Below, one piece after another: positions 7,226 through 54,271 of a stretch of DNA of 59,507 bases. Under the pieces are notes generated by a model that had not been told where the DNA came from, made no database searches, and saw only the letters and a program-made list of their open reading frames with translations. Source of the stretch: a virus; the IMG/VR virus record IMGVR_UViG_3300022690_002018, positions 1-59,507 of that record; one strand, written 5' to 3'. Each line of letters begins with the position of its first letter. Within the stretch, counting starts at the first letter, position 1. The translations under genes and the position numbers were made by a program.

Positions 7226-7621
7226 ATGAATGAAGACAATGACACGTTAACACAAGCAACTCATGATATTTTAGAAAACAGGACAGAAGCATGGGAGGTT
7301 TACGAAGGGCATCCCTACGATGTCGTTTTGAAAGCATTTGCATGCCTTTTTGAAGAACTGGAAAAACGGTTAAAAAGAGTTGAAGGTAGTATGAAAAAAA
7401 AACCACTCGTTCACTGGTCCTTAGAAGTGTCCCCTGTGCTGGACCGGCGAATAGATGAGATAGCAGAAGAATCAAACTCTACTAAGGAAAAAGTATTACA
7501 GAGAGCAATGATTTTGATAGATGTTGCCATGCAGGAACAGGAAAAGGGGAACCATTTGGCCATCGTGGACAAAGACGGCAAAATACTAAAAGACATTGTG
7601 GGCTTATGCGATGGCGATTAA
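7226..7621 (+). CDS. Protein with C-terminal ribbon-helix-helix-like domain
   Basis: The C-terminal part (WSLEVSPVLDRRIDEIAEES, then STKEKVLQRAMILIDVAMQE) has the strand-helix-turn-helix layout of ribbon-helix-helix regulators. It is followed by GNHLAIVDKDGKILKDIVGL, as in related phage proteins. The N-terminal half is helical and may give dimer or partner contacts. Very similar C-terminal ends occur at 7618-8331 and 28506-28733. The ATG at 7226 is preferred, with AAGAGA upstream. It overlaps the convergent gene at 7618 by four bases. Confidence 0.65.
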   Translation: MNEDNDTLTQATHDILENRTEAWEVYEGHPYDVVLKAFACLFEELEKRLKRVEGSMKKKPLVHWSLEVSPVLDRRIDEIAEESNSTKEKVLQRAMILIDVAMQEQEKGNHLAIVDKDGKILKDIVGLCDGD

Positions 7622-8400: not shown

Positions 8401-9273
8401 CTATTTATTTTTAATAGTTTTCGGTTTTACAGGTGCATTTAATTGTAATATTTTATTCAGATACGGTAAGGCTTTTTTATCTCGTTTTGTAAAATATTTT
8501 GTCGATCTCTCAGGCATCCATATCTTAGCTACATGTTCTCTAAAAGCATGTAAATATTTTGCAGGATACATCTTAGCTTCTACTTCTCTTCCATCTTCAT
8601 ATTTATGCCAATAAGTAGGCATTTCGTCAGTATTAACGCCCTGATCCCTTAACCACTGCGCAAATATTAATCCTTGAGATATATCAGGAACCATATTACT
8701 AGGGAGGGTATACCCTTGTTGCTCTAAAGGAGCAATTAATACTAAAGTCATTTCTTGTAAGACAGAAAAATGATCTGCTGGGATGCGTCTCATATTTAGC
8801 ATATATCGTTTTAAATGGTATGGTAGCTCACTTTTTGGTGTTTTCCCCGAAAGCCAATCAAATACCCATTTAGAAACAGCTACAGCAAATTTTGGAGAGG
8901 CCCATTGTCCAAGATTCATAGCTACTTGGGGATGAACCCATGTTCCTTGAAGATTTGGTACTCCACCCTTAATAACATGAACTAATCCCGAAACGCGTAT
9001 ACGCGTTTCGGAAGATAGTTCCTCTAAAAACGCCTTTGTTGCAGGAAGTCTATACCAATTGTTGAACACCCTATTGCACGCTCTACACATAGCCGTAGCA
9101 TTTACATAGCCATCCTGAATTCTTTGGTAGATTATCTCACCTTCTTCTATGTGCTTAATAAGCGGGAATTCTAATTCTTGTTGCATATCTTCTTTCTCTA
9201 TAGGAGATACGACAGCTTTTGTCAATTCTTCTAAGCTAGCCTTTATTGGTTTTATGGTTCTATCTTTAGCCAT
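8401..9273 (-). CDS. KilA-N domain protein (IS passenger gene)
   Basis: 290 aa. Residues about 45-145 match KilA-N: DGYVNATAMCRACNRVFNNW, then KAFLEEL, GTWVHPQVAMNLGQWASPKF and VSKWVFDWLSG. KilA-N is a DNA-binding domain common in phage and large DNA virus regulators. The C-terminal half is unassigned and ends in a basic tail (KPKTIKNK). The gene overlaps the transposase stop by eight bases, implying translational coupling, and lies wholly between the IS ends. It may regulate transposition or be cargo that benefits the element. A 24-bp perfect palindrome lies in its coding sequence at 8988-9011. Confidence 0.9.
   Translation of the reverse strand: MAKDRTIKPIKASLEELTKAVVSPIEKEDMQQELEFPLIKHIEEGEIIYQRIQDGYVNATAMCRACNRVFNNWYRLPATKAFLEELSSETRIRVSGLVHVIKGGVPNLQGTWVHPQVAMNLGQWASPKFAVAVSKWVFDWLSGKTPKSELPYHLKRYMLNMRRIPADHFSVLQEMTLVLIAPLEQQGYTLPSNMVPDISQGLIFAQWLRDQGVNTDEMPTYWHKYEDGREVEAKMYPAKYLHAFREHVAKIWMPERSTKYFTKRDKKALPYLNKILQLNAPVKPKTIKNK
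8988..9011. repeat. 24-bp perfect palindrome inside the KilA-N gene
   Basis: Half-site CCGAAACGCGTA followed by its exact reverse complement. It encodes SSETRIRVSG in the loop after the KilA-N recognition region. A perfect palindrome of this length is unlikely by chance in coding DNA; it could be a binding site for the passenger protein itself. Confidence 0.75.
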
Positions 9274-10192
9274 TGATTAACTCTTTATAACTGAGATACT
9301 TATTGTCCATTCTTTTAACAGTTGAACTGATAAAATCCATGGTGTTAAGGTGAGCGGTATTATGCCGAAAAGAGAACTCATTTACATAACGATGTAGATG
9401 TTTTTCGCTCATGTGGTGATATATTCCGCAATACCCTCTTTTCAACAACGCCCAAAAGCTTTCGATACCGTTAATGTGTGCTTGATCCCTAACATACTCA
9501 CCTACTGAATGGTTTACTGTTTTGTGTTGGTAGCTATTCATTCCTTTATAGGAAGCAAATTCATCGGTTACAACCGTTGATCCAGCTTTCACATTCGCAT
9601 AGATAAAACCTTGTAATGTTTTTGCCGTTGTATCCTTAATAGGTTTTGCTATTACTGTTCCGTGTTCGTCTAACATTCCAATAACGGGTATTTTCCCTAC
9701 AGGGCCACGGCCTTGATTTAGTTTTTTATCAGCATGCTTGTTCTTTTCTTTACCACCTACGTAAGTTTCATCAACTTGAACATTCGAGCCAGTATCTCCG
9801 CCATTGTTCTTACTGTTGACCCACATTTCACGGATACGTTGAGCTAAAAACCACGCTGATTTTTGAGTAATTCCTAATTCTCTGGCCATTTGTGTGGAGG
9901 GAATGCCCTTGCGAGCTGTTGTCATCATATAGATAGCCATCAACCATTTATGAAGTGGCAATTTAGACGCTTCGAGTATGGTTCCCGTACGCACGCTGAA
10001 ATGCTTTCTACACGTTTTACAACGATAAGCCATTGGTTTATGGTCTTTGCACTCTGATATATGGACGCTTCCACAATGGCCACAAATGGGATTGCTATTC
10101 CAAAGTTTTTGTTCAAAATATAGCCGAGCTGCATTTTCATTAGGGAATTGTTGAAAGAATTTGTATAGACTAATGGTTTCCGGTTTTGGCAT
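9266..10192 (-). CDS. IS1595-family (ISXO2-like) DDE transposase
   Basis: 308 aa, intact. The N-terminal zinc ribbon has cysteines 37, 40, 58 and 61 (CGHC, CKTC). It is followed by a HTH-like region (STQMARELGITQKSAWFLAQ). The catalytic core has D141 (QVDETYVGGKEK), D210 (TVVTDEFASY) and E244 (NGIESFWALLKRG), with the IS1595 signature YVGGK. Full length and all catalytic residues are present, so the element is probably active. The stop overlaps the KilA-N start. Confidence 0.95.
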   Translation of the reverse strand: MPKPETISLYKFFQQFPNENAARLYFEQKLWNSNPICGHCGSVHISECKDHKPMAYRCKTCRKHFSVRTGTILEASKLPLHKWLMAIYMMTTARKGIPSTQMARELGITQKSAWFLAQRIREMWVNSKNNGGDTGSNVQVDETYVGGKEKNKHADKKLNQGRGPVGKIPVIGMLDEHGTVIAKPIKDTTAKTLQGFIYANVKAGSTVVTDEFASYKGMNSYQHKTVNHSVGEYVRDQAHINGIESFWALLKRGYCGIYHHMSEKHLHRYVNEFSFRHNTAHLNTMDFISSTVKRMDNKYLSYKELING

Positions 10193-10282: not shown

Positions 10283-11029
10283 TTAATCGTCTACTTCATC
10301 CGCCACACGCCAACTGTGGCCCTCTCGAATAACCCATTGGCCTATGCGCACTTTTAAGCACTCCACTCGTTGTAGATTTCTAGGAGTCCAGATAAAGTTA
10401 CAATACCCATCGTAGTATGAACTGTAAGACCACGTACCCTCGTCAAAGGTTCCGTTCAGCTTTGCTAATTCCTGCATAGTACTTATATCAAAGTCATTTC
10501 TCGTTGGAATCTGAAATGCTTTAGTAGCATCGCCTTTGAGTTTGCTGTTAATTTCTTTCAGACACTCAGCGCAAAGAAAAGCAGTCAGTGTGTACGCAAT
10601 TGGAATCTTTGGATTAAGGGTGTGACACTGAGTGCAAATCGTCACAGTAAGTAGGTCGGGATGCTCATAGATGTTGCCGACCACGTGTCGCTGTTCTTTA
10701 TCAAAACAAACAAGGTCTTCCCCTTCTGAATCTTTAGGAGTATTGAACCATATTCTAATGCTCGTATGATTGGGATCGTAAGAGATTGAACCTCGACGAC
10801 AATAGCATTTTCCTTCATAATTGAATTTAAGATGGTCCACAGTTCTATCGGTAGTAAGAATAAAAACAATATCACTTTCCCATATCTCTTTATCATTGGC
10901 ATCAAACAAACCCGTGTTGGCCATGTAAGGGACATCCTCCTGCTTATAAGCCGTGCCCCACCCCAATGTATATTCCATCTTTTGTGGAATGGGATGCCAA
11001 CATCGCCATTTCAGAGTGTCAATCAGCAT
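10283..11029 (-). CDS. YopX-family protein with zinc ribbon and PGDYG-like tail
   Basis: 248 aa. The YopX domain (about 1-130, ending VVGNIYEHPDL) and the following ribbon (CTQC ... CAEC) are paralogous to the 7618 product; the first 18 residues are identical. The C-terminal part differs: AFQIPTRNDFDI at about residue 175 and a late GQWVIREG segment make it a member of the PGDYG-like family. The stop codon lies in the IS target duplication. It overlaps the upstream gene by 11 bases. Confidence 0.78.
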   Translation of the reverse strand: MLIDTLKWRCWHPIPQKMEYTLGWGTAYKQEDVPYMANTGLFDANDKEIWESDIVFILTTDRTVDHLKFNYEGKCYCRRGSISYDPNHTSIRIWFNTPKDSEGEDLVCFDKEQRHVVGNIYEHPDLLTVTICTQCHTLNPKIPIAYTLTAFLCAECLKEINSKLKGDATKAFQIPTRNDFDISTMQELAKLNGTFDEGTWSYSSYYDGYCNFIWTPRNLQRVECLKVRIGQWVIREGHSWRVADEVDD

Positions 11030-27218: not shown

Positions 27219-27290
27219 CGTCGATACGGGGAATCGAACCCTGCTTACAAGCGTGACAAGCTTGTTTCTTAGCCACTAGAAGATATCGAC
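27219..27290 (-). tRNA. tRNA-Asp (GUC)
   Basis: Acceptor GTCGATA/TATCGAC with discriminator G, D-arm TTCT/AGAA, anticodon stem CAAGC/GCTTG with loop TTGTCAC (anticodon GTC) and T-arm CAGGG-TTCGATT-CCCCG with one A-C mismatch. CCA not encoded. About 80 percent identical to the tRNA-Glu at 28751. Confidence 0.88.
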
Positions 27291-27440
27291 CTCATTAATG
27301 TGTATCTCTCCAATTGAATTGCCTTGTAACTCTCCCAATTTTACGCTTTTAAGAGTAATAATAGGAATGTTAAATTCAGCACACCGTTTATCAAACAGAT
27401 GACCTGACCGCATTGTATTTCTACGATAGATTGGAATCAT
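27276..27440 (-). CDS. Small protein overlapping tRNA-Asp (54 aa)
   Basis: ATG at 27440 overlaps the preceding stop (ATGA), with AAGAAGG as ribosome site. Starts MIPIYRRNTMRSGHLFDKRC. The stop codon lies in the D-arm of tRNA-Asp, so translation and tRNA share 15 bases. Function unknown. Confidence 0.5.
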   Translation of the reverse strand: MIPIYRRNTMRSGHLFDKRCAEFNIPIITLKSVKLGELQGNSIGEIHINEVDIF

Positions 27441-27793
27441 TTTACCTTCTTATACTGACGTTCAAATTCCTTTGGTGTATAGACGGTAAAACATCGAGAG
27501 TATTCTTTAACAACCCAGTTTCCTTGATAAATACGTATTGCCGCTTTATCAAATAAGCATACATCGATATACGCATTACTTGGCGTTTCTGTACCCCCTT
27601 TTATAAAGGTTACATTCCAATAATCGGGTATTTCATCCCCACAAAACTTATGTACATAACGTAATCCTTGTTTTGTTGCCCATGCTTTAAATTCTACAAG
27701 GTTGTTGTCAGCCACATCAAACGCGTCTTCACCCTTCCATTCTATGGGCAATTGAAACGCCTCTACTGAAACCATTCTATTGTATTTTGACAT
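27437..27793 (-). CDS. PGDYG-like family protein (118 aa)
   Basis: VSVEAFQLPIEWKGEDAFD, helix FKAWATKQGL, then YQGNWVVKEYSRCFTVYTPK and a terminal FERQYKKVK. A clear paralogue of the early protein at 6798 (EYKKCFSVFTDDEFKKQYKQ). Function unknown. Confidence 0.72.
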   Translation of the reverse strand: MSKYNRMVSVEAFQLPIEWKGEDAFDVADNNLVEFKAWATKQGLRYVHKFCGDEIPDYWNVTFIKGGTETPSNAYIDVCLFDKAAIRIYQGNWVVKEYSRCFTVYTPKEFERQYKKVK

Positions 27794-27816
27794 TTAATTT
27801 TTCCTTTAATTATTTT

Positions 27817-28458
27817 CTAGGATAATAAAGCCCCATCACTTTCTATATTTAATATCAGTTCTTCTTCACTATTATCAAGATCATAATCACTCCCTCCATC
27901 TCTCCTATGTGGCTCTGGTAAGAAAGTATAGCGACGACAATGTCCCACATTAATAAACGAAAAACAGATGCTCACTGTGGCCAAACAAAAAGACAGGATC
28001 GCTAAGACCATAAAGGCAGTTACACTCTTAAAGACTTTCACATCCCCTTGGGTGACAGCACCAACCATTGCAAATATTGCTCCTAAACGGAAGCTCTGCT
28101 GACCCAGATCAACGACCGCTGCTATTGCATTCCAAGTGTTCCTTGTCGGATGATTTGGGCGAAACTCCAAGTTACCCATCGACATCCCTGTGTTATAAGA
28201 ATGTGAAAGCATAGATATCAGTGCAGAGCCAACAGCGATCATCCAAAGTGCAGGAATGGATACGGGAATTTGAAACGGATGATGATGCACTATACCAATA
28301 ACGACCACTTCCGTTAATAAGAATATCATCCTAGACACGTTACTGATGGTGCGAATAGATGTAACCCAACAATAACGCCCAACAGACGGTTTATGGTAGA
28401 AGGCCGACTTACTAATTAAAACATTCTCATCTTCTTGAACAGTTACTATTTTTCTCAT
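27817..28458 (-). CDS. Four-helix membrane protein
   Basis: 213 aa with four predicted membrane helices (about residues 38-60, 66-86, 105-128 and 137-165; for example VFKSVTAFMVLAILSFCLAT) and a basic, then acidic cytoplasmic tail (DLDNSEEELILNIESD). No family recognised. Located among lysis-region morons; envelope alteration or exclusion is possible. Confidence 0.6.
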   Translation of the reverse strand: MRKIVTVQEDENVLISKSAFYHKPSVGRYCWVTSIRTISNVSRMIFLLTEVVVIGIVHHHPFQIPVSIPALWMIAVGSALISMLSHSYNTGMSMGNLEFRPNHPTRNTWNAIAAVVDLGQQSFRLGAIFAMVGAVTQGDVKVFKSVTAFMVLAILSFCLATVSICFSFINVGHCRRYTFLPEPHRRDGGSDYDLDNSEEELILNIESDGALLS

Positions 28459-28505
28459 TTGAATTTATATCCTTTTTATTTGTTTACCTTCTCTATGGAC
28501 AGAAT

Positions 28506-28733
28506 TTATTTTTCCCCAAGAAGCCCTGGTATAAGTATCTGTGTTTGTCTCCCTTTCTTACCATGAATCATAATTTTATCACCCTGCTCTATTGCCATCA
28601 CTAACGCATATTGAAGGTCAACGGCTCGTCGAATAACATCTGAACGACTGGGCGCACCTATTTTTTCCACTGTTTCGTCGGCTTGATCAATGGTTATTGC
28701 TCTCATTCGAACTTGGATCATTTTTGATTTCAT
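28506..28733 (-). CDS. Ribbon-helix-helix regulator (75 aa)
   Basis: ATG at 28733 (AAGGA upstream, partly from the tRNA spacer). Strand KMIQVRMRAITIDQADETVE, then SRSDVIRRAVDLQYALVMAI, followed by GDKIMIHGKKGRQTQILIPG. The C-terminal half equals in layout the tails of the 7226 and 7618 products. The longer frame running into tRNA-Glu is rejected. Confidence 0.7.
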   Translation of the reverse strand: MKSKMIQVRMRAITIDQADETVEKIGAPSRSDVIRRAVDLQYALVMAIEQGDKIMIHGKKGRQTQILIPGLLGEK

Positions 28734-28750
28734 ATCTTTTTCCTTATTTC

Positions 28751-28822
28751 TGTCGGTACGGGGAATCGAACCCCGCTTACAAGGATGAAAACCTTGTTTC
28801 CTAACCACTAGAAGATACCGAC
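28751..28822 (-). tRNA. tRNA-Glu (UUC)
   Basis: Acceptor GTCGGTA/TACCGAC, discriminator A, anticodon stem CAAGG/CCTTG with loop TTTTCAT (anticodon TTC), T-arm CGGGG-TTCGATT-CCCCG. CCA not encoded. All stems fully paired, allowing G-U. Confidence 0.93.
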
Positions 28823-28827
28823 TCAAG

Positions 28828-28901
28828 TAGCGGGGGTAGGATTTGAACCTACGACCTTCGGCTTATGAGACCAATAAGCTACCTAACTGCTCTACCCCGC
28901 A
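28828..28901 (-). tRNA. tRNA-Met (CAU), initiator-like
   Basis: Anticodon loop CTCATAA and T-arm GTAGG-TTCAAAT-CCTAC. The acceptor stem has six pairs with an unpaired T1-T72 at the end, as initiator tRNAs have an unpaired 1-72. Variable loop AGGTCG and D-arm GAGCAG...GGTAGCT also match fMet tRNAs, but the anticodon stem has two G-C pairs and one U-G instead of three G-C. CCA not encoded. Confidence 0.88.
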
Positions 28902-33479: not shown

Positions 33480-34841
33480 TTATGTTAAGTTAAAAATAAC
33501 ATTACCAAGGACAGCGATTTCGTCATTGTCTACTTCAATGTCTCCGTTAGGCGTACTCAGTTCAAAATCCGTTACTTTACTTCCCGTATCGTCAAATGCC
33601 TCAAAAACAGCACATTGATATAGAAATTGACTCATGGACGAACCAATAGGGTTTTGTTCCTTAAACAATTGCACTAAATTTGCCTTAACGGCTTCTCGCA
33701 AAGAAGAAGAATCGGGTACAAACACCGTAAAAATAAAATCAATCACTTTTGATCGCAATACTGGAAATATCACATTACCACTGGCAGGATCAATTAAACC
33801 CGTAGGATCACTACCGTTTACTGTACCCGCTAAAACATGCGCTGGTTTTATTTCTAAAACAGCGGCCTTTGCTAATCGTCGATCCGTTAGTGTTGGTATA
33901 ATGGTAGGGTCGTTATCCTTCGTAAAAAACACAGTAATATCGCCAGGGAGAGGGAAAGCCTCACGAACCAGTACCCGAGTAACGCCAGCGACAGTTTTAA
34001 CTTGTTGTTCTATTTGAGCTACATTGTAAAAACTGACAGGATTCTGATATCTATCAATGATTCGATTACGTAGGTCTTCATCCGATTCTAAGTCTTCTCC
34101 ACCACTAATTGTACTAAACTGAACAAATCCTGCACTATCAACGCCCGCTATGGGTGTAGTAAGCGTTAATGACGTTCCTGATTCTTGGTTGGCAATCTGC
34201 CCAAAATCTTGTGATTCTAAGGACACCGTAATACCGGTGAATTCAGCTTTAAGACTGCCGGTTGCAGGAGTAACTGGCGTTCCAATAATCCCATAAGTAA
34301 AGGTATCTTCACCCGTAGAAATTATTGTAAACTGTCCGTTATATTCAGGTTGATCCGCTCCTGAAATAATAACGGCTAACCCCGTCGCGTATTCATGCGG
34401 TGTCTCAGTTATTACGGTTACAATTTGCCCAATTCGAGTTAAAATACTAATATCTCTATTTAAATCTTTAATCTCAACCGTACCATTGGATGTATAAAGC
34501 GTTTGATCTTGCGTTTGAAAGTCAGTCCCGTTAGGAATAACTGACCCTGGCGTGCCGCCTATGGTAATTGGTCCCTCAGCAATAGTGGCTGCTTTTCTAA
34601 ATATATTCTTATAACTACCCCACCGTTCTAAAAACTGGCCTGTAGCAGTGTCCATAAACATTTCTGTCTCAAGAACTTGAAGCTGTAAGAAAAAATCAAA
34701 AACTCGACCTGAAAGGCCAAATGCTAAAGCACCAATAAATGAATTTCTTAAAAACGGATTTGATTGGGGAAGCTGCGCCCGTATATCATTCTTTATACGG
34801 TCGGTAATTTCCTTCCTATTATCGGGTATCTCAATTGACAT
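33480..34841 (-). CDS. Baseplate J-like protein (Mu gp47 family) with inserted beta domain
   Basis: 453 aa. Family marks: LPQSNPFLRNSFIGALAFGL near the start, ATGQFLERWGSYKNIFRKAA, and SGGEDLESDEDLRNRIIDRY (about 252-271). Between about 130 and 200 an extra domain is inserted (HEYATGLAVIISGADQPEYN, FTYGIIGTPVTPATG) that also occurs in the 46350 protein. Forms the baseplate wedge. Overlaps the upstream gene by 11 bases. Confidence 0.9.
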   Translation of the reverse strand: MSIEIPDNRKEITDRIKNDIRAQLPQSNPFLRNSFIGALAFGLSGRVFDFFLQLQVLETEMFMDTATGQFLERWGSYKNIFRKAATIAEGPITIGGTPGSVIPNGTDFQTQDQTLYTSNGTVEIKDLNRDISILTRIGQIVTVITETPHEYATGLAVIISGADQPEYNGQFTIISTGEDTFTYGIIGTPVTPATGSLKAEFTGITVSLESQDFGQIANQESGTSLTLTTPIAGVDSAGFVQFSTISGGEDLESDEDLRNRIIDRYQNPVSFYNVAQIEQQVKTVAGVTRVLVREAFPLPGDITVFFTKDNDPTIIPTLTDRRLAKAAVLEIKPAHVLAGTVNGSDPTGLIDPASGNVIFPVLRSKVIDFIFTVFVPDSSSLREAVKANLVQLFKEQNPIGSSMSQFLYQCAVFEAFDDTGSKVTDFELSTPNGDIEVDNDEIAVLGNVIFNLT

Positions 34842-41137: not shown

Positions 41138-42769
41138 TTATCCATTGGTAGAAAACGTAAGTTCAAGTGTGCCAACAATTTCTCGAAGCTGAGTAACGAT
41201 AGGAATCAATGCAAAAATAATCACTTTTCCAGCTTCTAAATCTAATGTGACTGTAAGATTGTCTTTAAAAAACTTGGTTGCCCTTTCGCCCAATTGGGTA
41301 AGAACAAACTCAGGGCCAGCTAAATCCCGATATAACCCTCCTATAAACGCCTTGATAGAAGATACATTGGCTTGATTTCGATTTGACACTAAATCACCTT
41401 CTGTCAATCGAGACTGGGCATATCGAGATTTTAAATTATTGAAAAAATATTCCCGAACATTTGACATGGTATCGACGGCATTTAAAAAGAAAAAGGATTT
41501 ATCCGGTTTTCCATTTGTATTCGTTTTATAAAGCGTTACCGCATCTAACGATACTATTTTAGTATCAGCATCGTTATTTTCTAACATACTTAGCCCAACT
41601 TCTTGTAATTCTCTAATTTGTTTATTTTCAAAACCTGCATCTTCTCTAATCACAGGGAGGAGATCAAACGGGGTATTGAAATATGGAAGACTGGCTAATG
41701 CGGGACCGCCAAAATTGTCCAGTGCTCCACTAGTAGAAGTAACAAACTGTGATATATCTGCTCCTTCAGTTAATCGCAATCCTCGAATCGCCCCTATTTG
41801 AGAAGCAATCACATAATCTAATTCAACCAATGCAGACCCTTCTTGCGGTAAAATCCCGGTAGGACCTAATGTCTCCGCATTGGCATAAAGCGATATCACT
41901 CGTGTATCTAAAGATTCACCTTGTATTTTTTGATCTCCGAAACTTTGAGTAAATGAAATAATGGCTTGCCCGTCTCGTATTTCATTATCCGAATTGAAAC
42001 GAGTTTCTAAATCTTCAATCAAGGGTCTCCAACTATCTGCCGGGGTTCCAGTATCCTCATCATACGTTTGAGGCCAAACAATGGTCTGATATCGTTGACG
42101 TGCGATATCTTGAAATATACTCGTAAGATCGGGATTGGCAGTTGTTCCAGCAAAGCCAACAATCTCAACAGTAATTCCAAGAGGAATCTTTATAGTTTGG
42201 ATAGTAATATGTCTTGCCTCATTACCAGTATTAGCACCATTTAGCTCAATTACCCCTAAGCCTATATCGGTAGCAATAATGGGAACCGTTAAATCCGCAT
42301 TGATAAGATTAGGTAAGTTAGCGCCAAAAAAAGAAGCACCAGTAGAGCCTTTGGGCACTGGTAAAGTAAACGTATGGTTCCTTTTTGACCCAATTGCAAC
42401 AATAAATTCTCCATCTTCCGTAGAAGTCCCTAAAAAATTCAGCTCTGCATCTAACGCATCTCCTGCTGCATCCGGCAACACAAACGCATCAAAACGGGTA
42501 ACAGGGTTTACTAATCGAGCTTCCCGTAGCATAGCTGTAATAATAGAACGAGGACCATATAGAATACTATTTCCCTTTTCATCATCGGGAACGTTATTAA
42601 CAAGTTTTCCAGCCGTTGCAGGGTCAAACGTTCCAGCAGGATTACCGCTACCTACCGTTCCACCGTTCTTTATCATTTGTCCTACAAATAATATTTTTTG
42701 AGGTGTATTAGATACTCGCGTTCTCGCAGGGATAATATCTAGATTTATTTTAGGAGAACTAAATGTCAT
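41138..42769 (-). CDS. Contractile tail sheath protein, copy 3
   Basis: 543 aa. Mu gpL-like sheath features: VSNTPQKILFVGQMI, FDAFVLPD, IARQRYQTIVWPQTYD, MSNVREYFFNNLKSRYAQSR and the C-terminal FFKDNLTVTLDLEAGKVIIF. Very similar in N- and C-terminal parts to copies 1 and 2, more divergent in the middle (about 100-330). Sits next to the tube gene, the canonical place. Confidence 0.92.
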   Translation of the reverse strand: MTFSSPKINLDIIPARTRVSNTPQKILFVGQMIKNGGTVGSGNPAGTFDPATAGKLVNNVPDDEKGNSILYGPRSIITAMLREARLVNPVTRFDAFVLPDAAGDALDAELNFLGTSTEDGEFIVAIGSKRNHTFTLPVPKGSTGASFFGANLPNLINADLTVPIIATDIGLGVIELNGANTGNEARHITIQTIKIPLGITVEIVGFAGTTANPDLTSIFQDIARQRYQTIVWPQTYDEDTGTPADSWRPLIEDLETRFNSDNEIRDGQAIISFTQSFGDQKIQGESLDTRVISLYANAETLGPTGILPQEGSALVELDYVIASQIGAIRGLRLTEGADISQFVTSTSGALDNFGGPALASLPYFNTPFDLLPVIREDAGFENKQIRELQEVGLSMLENNDADTKIVSLDAVTLYKTNTNGKPDKSFFFLNAVDTMSNVREYFFNNLKSRYAQSRLTEGDLVSNRNQANVSSIKAFIGGLYRDLAGPEFVLTQLGERATKFFKDNLTVTLDLEAGKVIIFALIPIVTQLREIVGTLELTFSTNG

Positions 42770-42831
42770 TTTTTTAAACCATCTATTCTAATTTAAAGAT
42801 TAACTAAACCAATACTCATAATGTAATCCCC

Positions 42832-44460
42832 TTATCCATCGATAGCAAACGTAAGTTGTAATTCGCCAACAATTTCACGAAGCTGAGTAACAATAAGAAC
42901 CAAAGCAAAAATAGTCACTTTTCCAGCTTCTAAATCTAATGTGACTGTAAGATTGTCTTTAAAAAACTTGGTTGCCCTTTCGCCCAGTTGAGTAAGGACA
43001 AATTCAGAACCGGCTAAATCCTGATATAGACCACCCATGAACGCTTTAATAGAGGGTTCGTTGGCTTGATTACGACCTGTTGCTAAATCACCTTCTGTTA
43101 ATCGAGACTGAGCATATCTAGATTTTAAATTATTGAAAAAATATTCCCGAACATTTGACATGGTATCGACGGCATTTAAAAATAAAAATGATTTATCGGG
43201 ATTGCCAGTCGCATTTGTTTTGTAAAGTGTGAGTGCATCTAAAGATACTATTTTAGTTTCAGTATCATTATTTTCCAGTATACTTAGCCCAACTGCTTGT
43301 AAGTCTTTAATCTCAATATCTATAAATCCTTCATCTTCTCTAATCACAGGAAGAAGATCAAAAGGCGTATTAAAATAAGGAAGACTCGCTGATGCAGGGC
43401 CGCCAAAATTGTCCAGTGCCCCATTAGAAGCGTTAACAAATCTTGAAATATCCGCTCCTTCGGTTAAGCGCAATGCTCGAATCGCCCCAATCTGGGAAGC
43501 AATGACATAATCTAATTCAACCAATGCAGACCCTTCTTGGGGCAACAAGCCGCTAGGACTCTGAGTCACTGCATTAGCATAAAGTGATAACACTCTGGTA
43601 TCTAAAACTTCAGCTTGTGTTAGTTGCGCCCCAGCAGGTCTGGTAAATGAAATTATCCCTTGCCCATCGCGTATCCCATCATCCGAATTAAAACGCTTTT
43701 CTAAATCCCTAATCAACGGAATCCAACTGTTTTCCACTGTTACCAAATCTTCATCATAGGTTTGAGGCCAAACAATCGTCTGATATCGTTGACGTTCAAT
43801 GGCCGGAAATACAAATCCAAGAACAGGGTCACCCGTTGTGCCGGAAAAGAAATTAATTAAAACGTTAATCCCAGGGGGAATTTTTATGGTTTGAATCGTA
43901 ACATGCCCTGTTTCAAAACCCGTATTAGCTCCCTCTAACTGAATTACCCCGGGGCCACTACTTATAGCCTTGAGTGGAACCGTTAAATCTGCATTGATAA
44001 GAGAGGGTAAATTATCAGTAAAAAACCCATCACCAGAACCCTCGGGTACTGCTAAAGTGAAGGTATGATTCCTTTTTGATCCAAGGGCAACAATAAATTC
44101 TCCATCTTCTGTAGAGGTTCCTGTAAACGTTATGTCTGCGAATAAAACACCTCCCCCTGCATCTGGCAACACAAAAGCATCAAAACGAGTAATAGGATTC
44201 ACTTTACGACCTTCACGTAGCATCGCCGCAATAATTGAACGCGGGCCATATAGAATATTATTTGCTTTTTCATCATCAGGCACATTGGCAACAAGTTTCC
44301 CCTCCGTCCCAGGATCAAACGTTCCAGCAGGATTGCCACTGCTTATAGTTCCGCTGAACTTTATCATTTGACCTACAAACAGTATTTTTTGAGGCGTATT
44401 AGAGACTCGCGTTCCCCCAGGAACAATATTAAGACTTATTTTAGGAGAGGTAAACGTCAT
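42832..44460 (-). CDS. Contractile tail sheath protein, copy 2
   Basis: 542 aa, same architecture as copy 3 (PGGTRVSNTPQKILFVGQMI, RYQTIVWPQTYDEDLVTVEN, MSNVREYFFNNLKSRYAQSR). The last about 120 codons differ little from the other copies at DNA level. Intact; ATG start. Confidence 0.92.
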   Translation of the reverse strand: MTFTSPKISLNIVPGGTRVSNTPQKILFVGQMIKFSGTISSGNPAGTFDPGTEGKLVANVPDDEKANNILYGPRSIIAAMLREGRKVNPITRFDAFVLPDAGGGVLFADITFTGTSTEDGEFIVALGSKRNHTFTLAVPEGSGDGFFTDNLPSLINADLTVPLKAISSGPGVIQLEGANTGFETGHVTIQTIKIPPGINVLINFFSGTTGDPVLGFVFPAIERQRYQTIVWPQTYDEDLVTVENSWIPLIRDLEKRFNSDDGIRDGQGIISFTRPAGAQLTQAEVLDTRVLSLYANAVTQSPSGLLPQEGSALVELDYVIASQIGAIRALRLTEGADISRFVNASNGALDNFGGPASASLPYFNTPFDLLPVIREDEGFIDIEIKDLQAVGLSILENNDTETKIVSLDALTLYKTNATGNPDKSFLFLNAVDTMSNVREYFFNNLKSRYAQSRLTEGDLATGRNQANEPSIKAFMGGLYQDLAGSEFVLTQLGERATKFFKDNLTVTLDLEAGKVTIFALVLIVTQLREIVGELQLTFAIDG

Positions 44461-44475
44461 TTTTTAAATCCTATG

Positions 44476-46116
44476 TTAACCATTAACTGAAAATGAAAGT
44501 TGTAATTCGCCAACAATTTCTCGAAGCTGAGTAACGATAGGAATCAATGCAAAAATAATCACTTTTCCAGCTTCTAAATCCAGGGTTACTTCTAAGTTGT
44601 CTTTAAAAAACTTGGTTGCATTTTCGCCCAATTGAGTAAGGACAAATTCAGAACCGGCTAAATCCTGATATAGACCGCTCATGAACGCTTTAATAGAGCG
44701 TTCATTGGCTTGATTTCTATCACGAATTAAATCACCTTCTGTCAATCGAGACTGGGCATATCGAGATTTTAAATTATTGAAAAAATATTCCCGAACATTT
44801 GACATGGTATCGACAGCATTTAAAAAGAAAAAAGATTTATCGGGATTGCCAGTCGCATTTGTTTTGTAAAGTGTTTCAGCATCTAACGATACTATTTTAG
44901 TATCAGCATCGTTATTTTCTAACATACTTAGCCCAACCGCTTGTAAGTCTTTAATCTCAATATTAGAAAAGCCATTCTCAATAATCACAGGAAGAAGATC
45001 AAAAGGCGTATTAAAATAAGGAAGACTGGCTAATGCGGGACCACCAAAATTGTCCAGTGCACCGCTGGTAGAAGTAACAAATCGTGAAATGTCAGCTCCT
45101 TCAGTTAGGCGCAATCCTCGAATTGCCCCAATCTGAGAAGCGATGACATAATTTAATTCCGCAATCGCAGAACTGATTTGTGGTAAAGGTAGACCAGGGT
45201 TAAATACAAACCTATTTGCATATATCGAAATAACCCGAGTATCCAATGCCTGCGCTTGAGCTGTATGATCCGCCACACTTAAAGTAAGGCTAATAATCCC
45301 CTGACCGTCTAAAATCACATTATCTAAATTAAATCTGGTTTCTAATTCGTCAATTAATATTTTATAACTCAATTCCTTACTAGAAAGGTTCTGGTCATAT
45401 GTTTCGGGCCATACAATTGTCTGATAGCGTTTATCGCCAATATCCGTAAAAATATTGGTTAAAGTTGGGTTAGTAGGAGTGCCTCCAGGAAGGATATTAG
45501 GTACAGCGGTAACGGCTGTAATCCCTGGAGGAAGTGCAAGAATCTTAATAGTAAGATTTTCTGCTTCAAGCCCTCGATTGGCTGTTAATAAATCTATTTG
45601 TCCTGCCCCAAAATCAGTGGCCACTACAGGAACGGTTAAATCAGCATTTATTAGGGGGGGCAACCCTGCCGAAATTACAGCAACCGAATCACCTTTTAAT
45701 ATATTTAAACTAAACGTATGATTTATTTTAGAACCTATTACTAAAGTAGCCGTACCGTTTTCGGTAGCAGTTCCCGTAAAAAAAGTAACCCTATAAGAAA
45801 AATTTGAATCTACCGTACTGTCTGGCAACACAAACGCATCAATTCGAGTAACCGGATTAACTTTTCTGGCTTCACGTATCATGGCCGCGATAATGGAACG
45901 AGGACCGTATAGTGCATTATTCCCTACTTCATCATCAGGAACGTTAGTGACCAATGTTCCCAAGACCGGATCAAACGTGCCAATGGGATTATTAGTCAAA
46001 TCACTCGCATTGTTTCTAATCATTTGGCCAACCAATAAAACCTTTTGATCGGTATTCTTAATACGACTTCCCGCAGGAATAATATCAATATTTACTTTGG
46101 GAGAACTAAACGTCAC
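44476..46116 (-). CDS. Contractile tail sheath protein, copy 1
   Basis: 546 aa, GTG start at 46116 while copies 2 and 3 use ATG. Most divergent middle (SYKILIDELETRFNLDNVIL, LPGGTPTNPTLTNIFTDIGD), but C-terminal domain nearly the same as the others. Intact, so three sheath isoforms could mix or be used alternatively. Confidence 0.92.
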   Translation of the reverse strand: MTFSSPKVNIDIIPAGSRIKNTDQKVLLVGQMIRNNASDLTNNPIGTFDPVLGTLVTNVPDDEVGNNALYGPRSIIAAMIREARKVNPVTRIDAFVLPDSTVDSNFSYRVTFFTGTATENGTATLVIGSKINHTFSLNILKGDSVAVISAGLPPLINADLTVPVVATDFGAGQIDLLTANRGLEAENLTIKILALPPGITAVTAVPNILPGGTPTNPTLTNIFTDIGDKRYQTIVWPETYDQNLSSKELSYKILIDELETRFNLDNVILDGQGIISLTLSVADHTAQAQALDTRVISIYANRFVFNPGLPLPQISSAIAELNYVIASQIGAIRGLRLTEGADISRFVTSTSGALDNFGGPALASLPYFNTPFDLLPVIIENGFSNIEIKDLQAVGLSMLENNDADTKIVSLDAETLYKTNATGNPDKSFFFLNAVDTMSNVREYFFNNLKSRYAQSRLTEGDLIRDRNQANERSIKAFMSGLYQDLAGSEFVLTQLGENATKFFKDNLEVTLDLEAGKVIIFALIPIVTQLREIVGELQLSFSVNG

Positions 46117-46349: not shown

Positions 46350-47444
46350 TTATAATTGCTCACTATCCAAGTCAACAACCGCTGTCAATTCAGGGCTTAA
46401 ACCATCCGGTGTATCCTGTTTAATATTCAAATCTATTTCCCTAAAGGCAACACTCAACTCAGGCTCTACAATATCACAACTGTTAATATACGCCGTAATT
46501 TCAAACAAATACTGATGCACATAATACGGCCCAGTATACGCTGCTATCCCATCTTCAACAAACGACATCAAGTAAACATTTGTTTCGTTTACCTGAAATA
46601 CAAAATTAACGCCAAGAATCGATTTAAAAATTAAACGTCGAATATCTTGCGCTTCATCTCTTGCACCACGGGCAGCAATTTCATCTTTCGTCGGGAAGAA
46701 TACATATAAGGAATACTGTTCAAACATTTGTTGACGATACTCAATACCTGCTACCGGCGAATAAGTGGTATCATTATCGAACTGACGATTTTTAGTTGTT
46801 GATGTTCTCCCTGGAATGACAAAAAGCCAAAGGTCGTCAGTAAACGGTTGTTTACTATAAGCTGCTATAATGCGATCTATATCAACGCCCCCCGAAATTC
46901 TAAAATTCTTTTTTGCTGAAATAAGTCCGTGCGCGGGGCTAATGGGCGTCCCCACTAAAATATAAGTAAAAGTTGTTGTCGTCGGCACTGAAACCACTAC
47001 AAAAACTCCGTTGTACCCTCGATCTTTTCCATCGAAAACAATAATAGTCCCAGTAGCAGGTGTAACGGGCGTAGTGGCGATTTGATAAGTAAAGGTTTTT
47101 CGATTGGGAACGCTTAGTAAGTCAAATGCACCGTTATACTCCAGCTGATCGGCTCCTTCGATTTCAATTACTTTTTGAAAACCTTCTGTTAAATCATGAT
47201 TTTCAAAAGTAACGCCCGTCACAATATCGTCCACGCGCGTTAAGCTCTCAAGGGTCAATGGGGATAACGCCCCACTAATATGAACGAGATCATTTACTGC
47301 TAATCCGTGATCTACGGTCGTCGTAACGGTAGCCGTTGAGCCACTGCGCGTAATCTCCGTGACAGGAACCGTATCGCTGAACTTATCCGTTAAAATCGGA
47401 AGAACCGCAATAAGTTGATTGATAATAGTAGATACTTTAGCCAT
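46350..47444 (-). CDS. Neck/tail terminator-like protein with two inserted beta domains
   Basis: 364 aa. Core pieces: TIINQLIAVLPILTDKFSDT at the start and a late part with IRRLIFKSILGVNFVFQVNE. Residues about 28-180 hold two copies of an Ig-like unit (GADQLEYNGAFDLLSVPN, FTYQIATTPVTPATG; RGYNGVFVVVSVPTTTTFTY, GTPISPAHG) also present in the baseplate J protein. Position between gp10-like and DUF2635 genes suggests the tail terminator or a neck protein. Confidence 0.65.
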   Translation of the reverse strand: MAKVSTIINQLIAVLPILTDKFSDTVPVTEITRSGSTATVTTTVDHGLAVNDLVHISGALSPLTLESLTRVDDIVTGVTFENHDLTEGFQKVIEIEGADQLEYNGAFDLLSVPNRKTFTYQIATTPVTPATGTIIVFDGKDRGYNGVFVVVSVPTTTTFTYILVGTPISPAHGLISAKKNFRISGGVDIDRIIAAYSKQPFTDDLWLFVIPGRTSTTKNRQFDNDTTYSPVAGIEYRQQMFEQYSLYVFFPTKDEIAARGARDEAQDIRRLIFKSILGVNFVFQVNETNVYLMSFVEDGIAAYTGPYYVHQYLFEITAYINSCDIVEPELSVAFREIDLNIKQDTPDGLSPELTAVVDLDSEQL

Positions 47445-48385: not shown

Positions 48386-49057
48386 TCAACATAACCATTC
48401 GTTTTGCAACTTGTAAATTATAAAATCACTGTAAAGCATTTGAGACGCTTGGGGTAATGATGATGCACCAATACAGATACAGGCACAATCTCCTCGATTT
48501 TCATACAAAAAAGCAATGTGCTGCATAAGTCCTATCTTGATTGCATCGGGAATATCAATAGTTACTGGCGGCCCATAGCCTGTTGTAATAAAAATCTCAA
48601 CAGGACGAGGGACATCACAGTCAACGGTAGGGAAGTCGTCCACAGGAAAAATAAAGGGATAATGTGAGTTATTGCCCTCATTCACTTCAAACTCTGAAGG
48701 ATCCCACGTAATAGAAAGGCCATTTTCTAAAAAATTAATAGCAATCACTTCCCGTAAAGGAAAACGTCGAATCTCAAGACAATTTTTACCACCCGTTGTG
48801 TGACAATCACCGAAAAATGGAAAAAAGCTATTTGAATGTGGAAACCCTGAACACAGAATAGTATACGTCTTTTCCGTTAAATCCTGACCCGTAAAGGCTT
48901 CAAATATACGAGTAGCAGCACGAATCAATTGCTTAATTAAATCATCATCTTCAGTATTAGCTACTTTTAAATAGCTCTTTACTTCAATCAGGGTAACAGC
49001 AAGATCGGTGGATTGCTCGTCCAACTTATAATCGCAATGTACAAATTGGCCACTCAT
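48386..49057 (-). CDS. Head-tail connector (HK97 gp6-like)
   Basis: 223 aa. VTLIEVKSYLKVANTEDDDL, IKQLIRAATRIFEAFTGQDL and IPDAIKIGLMQHIAFLYENR are the gp6/SPP1 gp15 family marks. Cysteine-rich C-terminal half (CACICIGASS) is uncommon for the family. Confidence 0.88.
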   Translation of the reverse strand: MSGQFVHCDYKLDEQSTDLAVTLIEVKSYLKVANTEDDDLIKQLIRAATRIFEAFTGQDLTEKTYTILCSGFPHSNSFFPFFGDCHTTGGKNCLEIRRFPLREVIAINFLENGLSITWDPSEFEVNEGNNSHYPFIFPVDDFPTVDCDVPRPVEIFITTGYGPPVTIDIPDAIKIGLMQHIAFLYENRGDCACICIGASSLPQASQMLYSDFIIYKLQNEWLC

Positions 49058-49063
49058 TAAAGG

Positions 49064-49363
49064 TTACTTTTTAGGTTTTTCTTTCTTCGTATGCACAACT
49101 TCTTTGGTTTCTTTCTCTTGCATATTCGCTGGCGTTTGTTCAATTTTCTCTTGCACACTGGCTGGAGTTTGTTCAACTTTACCTTCTATTTTTGCATAAC
49201 CGGCTGCTATCATCTGCTTAACGTCCTTTTCAGGTAAATTTGTTTGAACCTCACCTTTTTCAAAATGTAAAATCTTATCAACATACACTATACGCCTCCC
49301 TACTTGTTTCTTTTCATAACGTTTAAACTGCCAAACACATTTTTTTAAAAATTTAATTTCCAT
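49064..49363 (-). CDS. Hypothetical head protein with EQTPA repeat (99 aa)
   Basis: Starts MEIKFLKKCVWQFKRYEKKQ; mid part EKGEVQTNLPEKDVKQMIAA resembles small phage head proteins next to the connector gene. The C-terminal third repeats VEQTPASVQEK / IEQTPANMQEK and ends lysine rich. Function unknown. Confidence 0.65.
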   Translation of the reverse strand: MEIKFLKKCVWQFKRYEKKQVGRRIVYVDKILHFEKGEVQTNLPEKDVKQMIAAGYAKIEGKVEQTPASVQEKIEQTPANMQEKETKEVVHTKKEKPKK

Positions 49364-49390: not shown

Positions 49391-49795
49391 TTAATCAGTT
49401 TCAGAATGCCTTAAGTGATCCGACACCACCAAAACACCTACCCGCCCAAACGTAGTTAAATCCGACGTAATGACTTCAGCACTGATAAATCTTTTTTTAC
49501 CGATATAGCCCTGGCTGTCTAATGAATTCGTCCCTACTATTTCTAAATTTGGTCCTATTAAGTCTTCTTGAGGAACTGTTCCATGAGTAGCTGCTACCTC
49601 ACTGTCCCCATGGCGGATAATCAATGCGTGATCCCCATCCGTCGAATCGTCTGCAGTGAAGATATAAACTTCTACTGACTGAGAACCCGCTGTGTCAAAC
49701 GAAATCCCACCTAAAAGACTACCATTAGAATTGATTTGAATGATATCAAAAATGAACTGTTTTTTTGTTATTGAATGTAAATCTCGTGCAGTCAT
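49391..49795 (-). CDS. Capsid-associated small protein, paralogue 5 (134 aa)
   Basis: Member of a tandem five-gene family. ARDLHSITKKQFIF start, DTAGSQSVEVYIFTADDS, GYIGKKRFISAEVI and a terminal VSDHLRHSETD. The family (DLHS, DTAGxxSVE, GYxGKKRF, xxPRH) commonly follows the capsid gene in HK97-like phages as a single copy; decoration or head-completion role is inferred. Confidence 0.75.
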   Translation of the reverse strand: MTARDLHSITKKQFIFDIIQINSNGSLLGGISFDTAGSQSVEVYIFTADDSTDGDHALIIRHGDSEVAATHGTVPQEDLIGPNLEIVGTNSLDSQGYIGKKRFISAEVITSDLTTFGRVGVLVVSDHLRHSETD

Positions 49796-49807
49796 TAAAG
49801 TAGCTCC

Positions 49808-50236
49808 TTAAAATAAAACTTCTTCATCAAGAGGGGTATGTCTACCAGTATCTACAATGACAAAGCACCCTATAAATTGGCCAACAGTAACGTTAGTAGC
49901 CGTTACTGCCACACTAATAAACCTTTTTTTGCCAATATAACCTTGACGAAACATTTGACTTGCACCCCCTGAGTTTAAAATTTGAAGGGATGGGCCTACT
50001 AATTGATCGACGGGAACATCGACATGTTGAGCAAAATTATTCGTATCGCCATGGCGGGGAACCAATAAAAAATCGCCATCGGTAGCAAGCGTCGTGTTGA
50101 AAAAAAGAAATTCTGCTGATCCAAGACCCGCAAGGTCTAGACTAAGGTCTCCGCTAAACGTACCATTCGATACTAAGTCGGAAATTGTAAATAAAATCGC
50201 TTGTCTAATAACTGAATGAATTTCACTGTTAGCCAT
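49808..50236 (-). CDS. Capsid-associated small protein, paralogue 4 (142 aa)
   Basis: NSEIHSVIRQAILFTISDLV start, DLAGLGSAEFLFFNTT, GYIGKKRFISVAVTATNV and a terminal IVDTGRHTPLDEE. Same fold signature as paralogues 1-3 and 5; divergent middle loops. Own ribosome site upstream. Confidence 0.75.
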   Translation of the reverse strand: MANSEIHSVIRQAILFTISDLVSNGTFSGDLSLDLAGLGSAEFLFFNTTLATDGDFLLVPRHGDTNNFAQHVDVPVDQLVGPSLQILNSGGASQMFRQGYIGKKRFISVAVTATNVTVGQFIGCFVIVDTGRHTPLDEEVLF

Positions 50237-50265
50237 TTTTCTATTCTCCGTTTTTAACTTATAAT

Positions 50266-50694
50266 TTAAGGTAGCGCACTGGTAGGGGCACGCCTGGGAG
50301 TATTGAGAATAATAAAAGCCCCTAATAACTCACCTCCGCCAGCAATAATGGTAGAAACAATATGGGCACTTAAAAACCTTTTCTGGCCAACATATCCACC
50401 GCGCAACAAATTATCATTTCCATCAGCTTCTACTATCTTAAGTGGACTTCCAAGAAACTCATTACTAGGAACCGTGCTATGGTTACCTACAACATTAGTA
50501 TCACCATGGAGAAGAATCAGTTCATAATCCCCATCGACAACTGATAGAAAATGATTAAAAAACAAGACTTCTACAGATTCAAAACCAGCAGTATCCACTG
50601 CAATATTCCCAAAATGAGTAGTATTTATACTTAACTCATCAATTTTAAAAATATTTTGTTGCAGAATAATTGAATTAATGTCTTTAGTGGCCAT
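50266..50694 (-). CDS. Capsid-associated small protein, paralogue 3 (142 aa)
   Basis: TKDINSIILQQNIFKIDELS start, DTAGFESVEVLFFNHF, GYVGQKRFLSAHIV and a terminal ILNTPRRAPTS. Shares most with paralogue 2 in the DTxGFESVE block. Confidence 0.75.
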   Translation of the reverse strand: MATKDINSIILQQNIFKIDELSINTTHFGNIAVDTAGFESVEVLFFNHFLSVVDGDYELILLHGDTNVVGNHSTVPSNEFLGSPLKIVEADGNDNLLRGGYVGQKRFLSAHIVSTIIAGGGELLGAFIILNTPRRAPTSALP

Positions 50695-50718
50695 GGATGC
50701 ACCTTTTTTAAGTTATTT

Positions 50719-51129
50719 TTATACACTTACAATAGAATGCCGTGGAGAATCGGCTACTGCTATCACTCCGACATGGCGACCAGAAGTAACACCGGAAGCA
50801 ATAATATTAGCACTAAGAAAGCGTTTCTTTCCGATATAACCTTGCTGCAAAATCTCATTGCCAGAAGAAATAATTAATTGTGATCCTAATAAATCCTCAT
50901 CCAAAACATCCGTATGTGAGCTAAAAACATTAGTATCACCGTGTTTCACAACCAAGATAAAAGTACCATCGCCTGCATCATCCGTACTTACCATAACGAT
51001 TTCTACGGATTCAAAACCCGTAGTATCCACTACCAGGTTTCCGTCCGTTTTAACTCCATTCGAGGTTAACTGATCAATACGAAACAGAAAACTTGTAATT
51101 ACCTTCGAATGGAGTTCAGTAGCCGTCAT
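50719..51129 (-). CDS. Capsid-associated small protein, paralogue 2 (136 aa)
   Basis: TATELHSKVITSFLFRIDQL start, DTTGFESVEIVMVSTDDAGD, GYIGKKRFLSANIIASGV and a terminal AVADSPRHSIVSV. Intergenic spacer of about 20 bases to the next copy. Confidence 0.75.
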   Translation of the reverse strand: MTATELHSKVITSFLFRIDQLTSNGVKTDGNLVVDTTGFESVEIVMVSTDDAGDGTFILVVKHGDTNVFSSHTDVLDEDLLGSQLIISSGNEILQQGYIGKKRFLSANIIASGVTSGRHVGVIAVADSPRHSIVSV

Positions 51130-51141
51130 AATTAGTCCACC

Positions 51142-51570
51142 TTAAAAACTGGGAGTGACATTAGGATTAATTGGATTTCGAATCGCACCATCTACAATGG
51201 CAATTATTATCATATCCGCTTGTGCCGTTCCTCCAACTGCGCGTAAAACAGGTCGAACAAAAAGCTTATGCCCGATATACCCTACCATTCGGGTAACCGA
51301 CAAGCCGCCGAACGATAATGAAGTACCTGCTTCCGTACCCAACATAAATTCTTGAGGAACATCTACAAAGCCCGTATCACTAATATCACTGTCTTGCATA
51401 AACAGAGTCCACGTGCCCAATCCAATCGTCAACGCTATCATCATAAATTCAATGGATTGTAACCCAACAGTTGACAATGGGGCCCCAAGGTGTAACCCCG
51501 GAGTAATGAAAGTTGTGTTCGGCAATGAAGTTATCGAATCAATACGACTGTGTAAATCCTTACTAGGCAT
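51142..51570 (-). CDS. Capsid-associated small protein, paralogue 1 (142 aa)
   Basis: SKDLHSRIDSITSLPNTTFI start, TVGLQSIEFMMIALTIGLGT, GYIGHKLFVRPVLRAVGGTA and IAIVDGAIRNPINPN at the end. The copy adjacent to the capsid gene and the one most like single-copy relatives in other phages (VRPVL segment). Confidence 0.78.
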   Translation of the reverse strand: MPSKDLHSRIDSITSLPNTTFITPGLHLGAPLSTVGLQSIEFMMIALTIGLGTWTLFMQDSDISDTGFVDVPQEFMLGTEAGTSLSFGGLSVTRMVGYIGHKLFVRPVLRAVGGTAQADMIIIAIVDGAIRNPINPNVTPSF

Positions 51571-53142: not shown

Positions 53143-54219
53143 CTACAACCCTAACAACGCTTTCATTGCAGTTATTTCTTTTATAATCGTACTTTTTTCT
53201 TGTTTAAAGCATATGTCGCCATTTCTTTCTAACTTTCTTTCAATAAAACGCTCCATAAAATATCGTAAATCTTCTGGCCCAAACGCTTTAGCTTGCTTTA
53301 AAAAATAAAAAATATCTTCCTTTGTCATGGATTTTGCATGATCTAAATCCCAACATTTATTATCTTGGAAAGGACTTTCACGTCCCATTTTTTTATAATA
53401 CTGTTCTACATGCCGAATAACTGAGGGTCGATCCGAACTTGGAATATCTACCCCGCCTCGCGCACCTAATAATATAGCCGTTGATTCGAATATCGCACGA
53501 GGGATAGCCATCAATTTACCATCAATAACGTCCGCAAAAGCAAGTTTATAGATACAAAGCGCATTTGGGTCTGCCTCATTAAACCAAAAAAAAGAATCTG
53601 CGTACTTGTCCGACAATAAATCTTCAGAACCAATAAATTTTCGTACCCGTTTAAGAGCTTCTACTCTGTCCCAGGGATAGGTTGAATCTGCTAAGGGTAA
53701 ATCTTTAAAACCAATAACCGATTTAATGTCTGTAATTTCTGCTTTCTCATTCGCTGGGAAAGTGACAAAACTCACTTCAAACAGATTAATCTCTTTAAGG
53801 GTACGCACACCAGAGCGACTAATATCAGAATCTTCGACTTGAAAACCAATGGACATACGATTAATAATGTCAGCCTTAATGAGAGCAACCACATCCTTCA
53901 CTAAGCTATGCTCTTTAGGCATAACGGCTTTAATGAATAAACCTTTTTCATCTTCCACCGCTTTAATGATCCTACCAATCGGCTTATGGGCATCATGCTG
54001 CCATAAAATTTTGATATTCTTGCCGCTTTTACCTTTTAGTGTTTTTGCAAACGCACCTCTTTCGATAACGTCATTCGTAAAATCTTTATTGTTAAAAGTA
54101 CTGGCATAGCCCGTTACACGAACCATATCGTCGTCTTCGTCGTCATGGTCCCCTTTTTTTTCAAATTCAAAAGGAAAAGTTAGATGCTCTAATTTCAAAG
54201 AAGAATTGGTAGATTCCAT
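53143..54219 (-). CDS. Prohead protease (S78/U35) with C-terminal extension
   Basis: 358 aa from the ATG at 54219. Protease domain about 30-165: RVTGYASTFNNKDFTNDVIE, KILWQHDAHKPIGR (H75), NRMSIGFQVED (S123) and LFEVSFVTFPANEKAEI. The extra C-terminal about 190 residues (YPWDRVEALKRVRKFIGSED, FAFADV-like KLAFADVIDGKLMAIPRAIF, SSDRPSVIRHVEQYYKKMGR) form a second conserved-looking domain, found fused in some phages. Cleaves the capsid delta domain. Confidence 0.9.
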   Translation of the reverse strand: MESTNSSLKLEHLTFPFEFEKKGDHDDEDDDMVRVTGYASTFNNKDFTNDVIERGAFAKTLKGKSGKNIKILWQHDAHKPIGRIIKAVEDEKGLFIKAVMPKEHSLVKDVVALIKADIINRMSIGFQVEDSDISRSGVRTLKEINLFEVSFVTFPANEKAEITDIKSVIGFKDLPLADSTYPWDRVEALKRVRKFIGSEDLLSDKYADSFFWFNEADPNALCIYKLAFADVIDGKLMAIPRAIFESTAILLGARGGVDIPSSDRPSVIRHVEQYYKKMGRESPFQDNKCWDLDHAKSMTKEDIFYFLKQAKAFGPEDLRYFMERFIERKLERNGDICFKQEKSTIIKEITAMKALLGL

Positions 54220-54229
54220 AGTAAAAAAT

Positions 54230-54271
54230 CCTTTACGTATAAATAGCACTGCACCGACAGTTTATAACATT
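54230..54271. repeat. 42-bp direct repeat, copy A
   Basis: Identical to 54622-54663. On the minus strand it contains the last six codons and stop of the minor head gene sequence (copy B is the functional gene end) followed by a leader with a ribosome-site-like AAAGG. The gene at 54273 lies exactly between copies. Confidence 0.93.

Follow-up and report, generated by a model that had tools for sequence, protein, structure and literature searches.

Five tandem genes between the capsid and head-tail adaptor genes

The window, by which we mean the whole stretch of DNA analysed, comprises the 59,507 bases of an IMG/VR record of an uncultured virus and has about 38% GC. It carries a contractile-tail module comprising an HK97-type major capsid protein (MCP), a prohead protease, a portal, a terminase, an adaptor, three sheaths, a tape measure and a baseplate (Table 1). 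A first-pass annotation had described five tandem paralogues of a small post-capsid protein in this module, and its coordinates proved exact: five intact open reading frames (ORFs) of 134-142 aa occupy positions 49391-51570 of the minus strand, and the array starts directly after the MCP gene. The copies are referred to as c1 to c5 in transcription order.

Table 1. Coordinates of the features discussed, with the evidence for each
Feature	Position	Strand	Evidence or remark
c1, 142 aa	51142-51570	-	ORF; PHROG 5707 E 4.6e-8; first gene after MCP, most divergent copy
c2, 136 aa	50719-51129	-	ORF; PHROG 5707 E 1.7e-10; AlphaFold2 model
c3, 142 aa	50266-50694	-	ORF; PHROG 5707 E 5.5e-5
c4, 142 aa	49808-50236	-	ORF; PHROG 5707 E 3.5e-6
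c5, 134 aa	49391-49795	-	ORF; PHROG 5707 E 1.8e-4
HK97-type MCP, 430 aa	51582-52874	-	Pfam Phage_capsid E 3.5e-56; PHROG 10 E 8.9e-52
Prohead (head maturation) protease, Peptidase_S78	53143-54249	-	Pfam E 1.8e-32
Head-tail adaptor	48386-49057	-	PHROG 442 E 8e-15; end of head-coat block
99-aa gene after the array	49064-49363		Two adjacent 33-nt repeats (85% identical) in C-terminal part
Protein encoded upstream of the sheaths	46350-47444		PHROG 9998 domain
Three tandem tail sheath genes	41138-46116		67-70% identical
Baseplate J-like protein	33480-34841		PHROG 9998 domain
Three tRNA genes (Asp, Glu, Met)	27219-28901
PHROG 98 paralogue	10283-11029
IS1595-family transposase	9266-10192		Inside phage record
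KilA-N protein	8401-9273		Strong match to BstA abortive-infection family (PHROG 6287, E 1e-52)
PHROG 98 paralogue	7618-8331

Each of the five copies has an ATG start, a TAA stop and a Shine-Dalgarno-like stretch, and a spacer of 11-29 nt sets it apart from its neighbour. In pairwise comparisons of c1-c5, conservation is always highest at codon position 2 and nearly always lowest at position 3, the pattern of constrained genes. By these signals all five copies look expressed and constrained. A profile search of the whole record found no sixth copy.

The first-pass annotation had named pseudogenes or unexpressed copies as an outcome that would undo its reading. We found no point in favour of this, and it is scarcely credible given that all five frames are full-length, possess start and stop codons and ribosome-binding sites, and are best conserved at codon position 2; the same features, together with mutual similarity, rule out chance ORFs. 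Assembly duplication is likewise ruled out, as the copies are only 20-45% identical.

Two other parts of the window deserve mention. For the repeat-containing 99-aa gene that follows the array, no family was found. In a separate region, the transposase and the KilA-N gene are flanked by the two PHROG 98 paralogues.

Similarity and divergence among the copies

Compared with c2, the copies c5, c4, c3 and c1 give E-values of 3e-31, 2e-29, 5e-25 and 2e-6, respectively, a similarity in sequence far above chance. The copies c2-c5 share 37-45% of their amino acids with one another, and c1 shares 20-28% with the other four. Three conserved cores quoted in the first-pass annotation are approximate: DLHS is literal in c1 and c5 only and DTAGxESVE in c3 only, while GYIGKKRF stands as quoted in c2, c4 and c5 and is replaced by GYVGQKRF in c3 and GYIGHKLF in c1. 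The most conserved element of the whole family is a G-Y-x-G-x-K-R turn with the start of the next strand, plausibly an MCP contact or a structural turn.

Third-position identity among c2-c5 is 34-47%, and because synonymous sites are near saturation, a positive-selection test would be uninformative. Identical positions among c2-c5 number 12 of 55 in beta strands and 18 of 81 elsewhere. Identity is as frequent in strands as outside them, so none of the loops can be singled out as a region of variable display, and no hypervariable loop was seen among c2-c5 in this comparison of strands with the remainder.

Homology to capsid decoration proteins

All five copies match PHROG 5707, a family whose function is listed as unknown, at E 1.7e-10 to 1.8e-4, and so do all 40 relatives in the family profile. 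Relatives were gathered from phage records, viral contigs and bacterial genomes. The family is a widespread post-capsid one, with 250 matches in one viral scan. None of the copies matched Pfam at E up to 1, including other decoration families such as the lambda gpD type and Ig-like domains, and a PDB sequence search with the five copies alone gave nothing useful. When the profile of the 40 members was compared with the PDB, the only sensible match was the 'Capsid Decoration Protein' of Cobetia phage Carin1 (8cjz_B, E 1.1e-4, residues 4-127), spanning that protein's whole length.

The relation also appears in the reverse direction, as Bbp16 of phage BPP-1 matches PHROG 5707 at E 2.4e-8 and the Carin1 cement protein at E 8.5e-6. 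The Carin1 protein and its relatives (epsilon15 gp8, BPP-1 Bbp16, phiV10 and others) belong to PHROG 427. An hhalign comparison of our family profile with the Bbp16 family gave a probability of 94% (E 1.1e-7, score 47.4), compared with 16.1 for the best of 100 column shuffles and 12.3 for the reversed version. On this profile evidence the five copies are homologous to jelly-roll capsid decoration proteins of the Bbp16/Carin1 type, and a structural role for all five is strongly supported by sequence. The small post-capsid protein had earlier been taken for a virion structural family, a view that this homology upholds. Furthermore, two phage records label PHROG 5707 members 'capsid decoration protein' or 'capsid cementing protein'.

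Among the known systems, Bbp16 (PF21190, PHROG 427; PDB 3j4u_H) resembles the window copies in being all-beta, about 140 aa long and encoded directly after an HK97-type MCP, the position that Carin1 gp42 and epsilon15 gp8 also hold. It differs in being a single gene of a podophage, with PHROG 427 as its primary family, an MCP of permuted topology, and a homology that is remote, at about 10% identity in the aligned core. Carin1 gp42 (PDB 8cjz), matched over its whole length, is also a single gene, and in the annotated Carin1 record a distinct head spike base protein follows downstream. Closer in family are RHph_X2_25, Azospirillum phage Cd gp34, Mycobacterium prophiGD02-2 gp88 and Streptomyces phage Chymera gp07, all PHROG 5707 members from the post-MCP region. 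Unlike the window, these four have one copy each, two of them annotated as decoration or cementing proteins, and prophiGD02-2 has two small genes between the MCP gene and gp88.

Predicted structure

AlphaFold2 reached a pLDDT of 74 with 11 sequences and, in a model of c2, of 86 (pTM 0.77) with 40. The better model is predicted to be an all-beta sandwich, jelly-roll-like. Searched with Foldseek against 350,542 chains, the first, weaker model had the Carin1 cement protein as its best match and that of BPP-1 as its second, both with weak E-values. The better model placed generic jelly-roll and TNF-like proteins first and Carin1 17th (E 2.1e-3, TM 0.48-0.50), and BPP-1 was absent from its best 50. 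With Carin1 only 17th, the fold search supports a jelly-roll-like fold only; it is the sequence profiles that single out the cement-protein identity, which fold alone does not.

Copy number and gene position among relatives

To place the array in context, we examined 123 loci that contain the domain, after discarding known duplicates. The loci were found by queries from the decoration family and the sheath, and thus form a sample of relatives and no census. Of two genome scans, the first found no locus and the second gave 14; c2, the MCP or the terminase, used as single queries in viral contigs, found no close relatives.

The expectation that the family is usually present as one copy holds, with 116 of the 123 loci single-copy. 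Only the window has five. Two tandem copies follow the MCP gene in L021, L055, L174 and L175, the last two of which look like one related pair, and L049 has three domains in two ORFs, likewise in tandem after the MCP. One further apparent multi-copy locus, L037, was rejected as a palindromic assembly artefact. We found no described case of a paralogous decoration array in the open-licence literature.

The domain lies near the MCP in 122 of the 123 loci. Among 127 same-strand pairs of MCP and domain, 120 have the domain at most 300 nt downstream of the MCP; the remaining pairs are second or third copies, or one case parted from the MCP by a homing endonuclease gene.

Two of these records show additional arrangements. 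A single ORF of L049 (1364-2476) has a decoration domain on either side of a PHROG 9998 domain, a natural fusion presumed to lie on the capsid surface. The PHROG 9998 domain, about 70 aa long, also occurs in two proteins of the window (Table 1), and we read it as a mobile domain of virion proteins. In L071 (7511-7915 of L088, the same record), a second intact copy lies away from the head genes, between endolysin and replication genes. It shares 52% identity with the head gene of another phage (L010) and 35% with the copy in its own head module, so that acquisition from outside is suggested; the arrangement suggests a moron-like second coat gene.

Duplication history

A phylogeny with homologues, which the first-pass annotation had put forward as a check, was run as two trees. 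Both recover c2-c5 as a phage-specific clade (support 100/99) on a long stem of 0.94 and 1.15 changes per column, and the clade thus indicates tandem amplification in this phage's lineage. Copy c1 falls outside, on a long branch near the L055 pair with modest support, and in BLAST it matches single-copy genes from other phages best. A topology constrained to unite all five copies in one clade is not rejected by the AU test (p 0.46). Copy c1 is the original gene, kept since, or else an earlier duplicate. The two copies of L055 group together (support 98/87) and therefore look like an independent duplication.

The first-pass annotation had linked the array to a triple sheath, proposing a phage with a systematically diversified virion exterior. 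The triple sheath is real. Among other records with this sheath, 44 of 45 have a single gene, the exception being the palindromic assembly L037, and both expansions are unique to this phage in our sample. The sheath copies are, however, far less diverged than the decoration copies, and because divergence is so unequal the two expansions look like separate events and not one programme. L021, L055 and L049 moreover have a single sheath gene beside their additional decoration copies. The idea of one programme that diversifies the exterior is thus not supported. Multiple sheath genes have precedents, with two in some phages and three in the Afp system (PMC9230969).

A probable mixed coat on the mature head

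Bbp16 is one of the two most abundant proteins of the BPP-1 virion and is required for infectious particles; it has a jelly-roll fold and forms dimers outside the shell at two-fold sites (PMC3863775). With homology, gene position, intact frames and a lineage-specific expansion observed in the window, we propose that c1-c5 are very probably decoration proteins made together, which attach to the outer face of the matured shell, bridge MCPs and give a mixed coat. Since five copies stand here against one in nearly all relatives, the head is probably coated by a mixture.

In this mechanism, the original post-MCP gene, perhaps c1 or its sister, would have duplicated, and one daughter would have been amplified in tandem to c2-c5, the copies diverging under protein-level constraint. 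The five genes would be translated together with the MCP from one late head operon. Their products would bind the outside of the matured HK97-type shell, presumably that built from the MCP encoded next to them, as small oligomers (dimers in BPP-1). Such oligomers would link adjacent MCPs and brace the shell against the pressure of the DNA inside, and five related proteins would make up the mixed coat of the mature head. For location, oligomer state and stoichiometry, Bbp16 serves here as the model. Shigella phage Sf14 offers a partial precedent, since its head bears decoration proteins of more than one kind; its two proteins differ in fold (beta-tulip and Hoc-like) and are not paralogues (PMC11821841).

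Several observations count against this proposal. The homology to Bbp16 is remote, and generic jelly-roll and TNF-like proteins outrank Carin1 in the better fold search. The lone copy of L071 sits away from any head gene. In addition, Bbp16, the Carin1 protein and two relatives cross-match PHROG 9522, annotated 'major tail protein', and the same fold can therefore also serve on tails.

What the additional copies contribute

Three accounts of the extra copies are sub-questions of the mixed-coat proposal, and our estimates for them do not compete with it. The first is that interchangeable copies raise supply or persist as redundant duplicates, giving a random mosaic with no new function. The two-copy cases (L021, L055, L174/L175) indicate that the gene duplicates readily, and divergence is spread alike over strands and loops. 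Compact phage genomes, however, usually lose redundant copies, and here all five are intact with coding constraint and c1 has been kept as a separate lineage. We regard this account as possible, if rather doubtful.

According to the second account, each paralogue favours its own quasi-equivalent positions on the shell, or the paralogues pair as defined heterodimers; quasi-equivalence would then be a matter of separate genes and not of conformational flexibility. Five constrained copies have been kept long-term at 20-45% identity, the T=7 shell of BPP-1 has seven non-equivalent decoration positions with dimers across two-fold sites (PMC3863775), and the L049 fusion joins two such domains covalently, which implies that neighbouring unlike domains are tolerated. 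Against this, one BPP-1 protein fills all positions with nearly identical conformers (PMC3863775), the single-copy loci manage with one gene, and nothing in the sequence indicates position-specific interfaces. Such specialisation is unlikely, and its definite form, with the five paralogues at different genetically specified positions of one icosahedral head or in fixed heterodimers, is improbable.

The third account holds that some copies cement while others mainly present different outer faces, for example for weak binding to glycans or host surfaces as has been suggested for Hoc-like proteins. Decoration proteins are able to act in adhesion (review PMC7602432), the structural matches of the model include a TNF-like lectin domain, the N-terminal domain of BC2L-C (E 4.5e-4), and L049 displays its extra PHROG 9998 domain between two decoration domains. 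The lectin resemblance is nevertheless at fold level only, with 7-10% identity, extra domains are absent from every window copy, and c2-c5 are without loop hypervariability. We consider a diversified surface of this kind unlikely.

Alternatively, part of the array might decorate the neck or tail tube instead of the head. In PHROG 9522 the domain lies towards the C-terminus, at residues 138-238 of 241, where Bbp16, the Carin1 protein and some PHROG 5707 members match, and heads and tail tubes may both be decorated by this beta domain. No window copy matches the PHROG 9522 profile, however, the two relatives that do so match weakly (E 1e-4), and all five genes lie between the MCP and the head-tail adaptor, in the slot that head decoration genes hold in nearly all MCP-domain pairs. 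A neck or tail location is very unlikely.

Implications

The homology assigns a function, through solved cement proteins, to PHROG 5707, a family that previously had none listed, and the array is a natural example of decoration-gene amplification at its extreme. Should the copies only mix, one head can carry several diverged paralogues at once. If instead they occupy distinct sites, separate genes would code for quasi-equivalent sites that are elsewhere filled by one flexible protein, and the array would offer a genetic way to probe quasi-equivalence.
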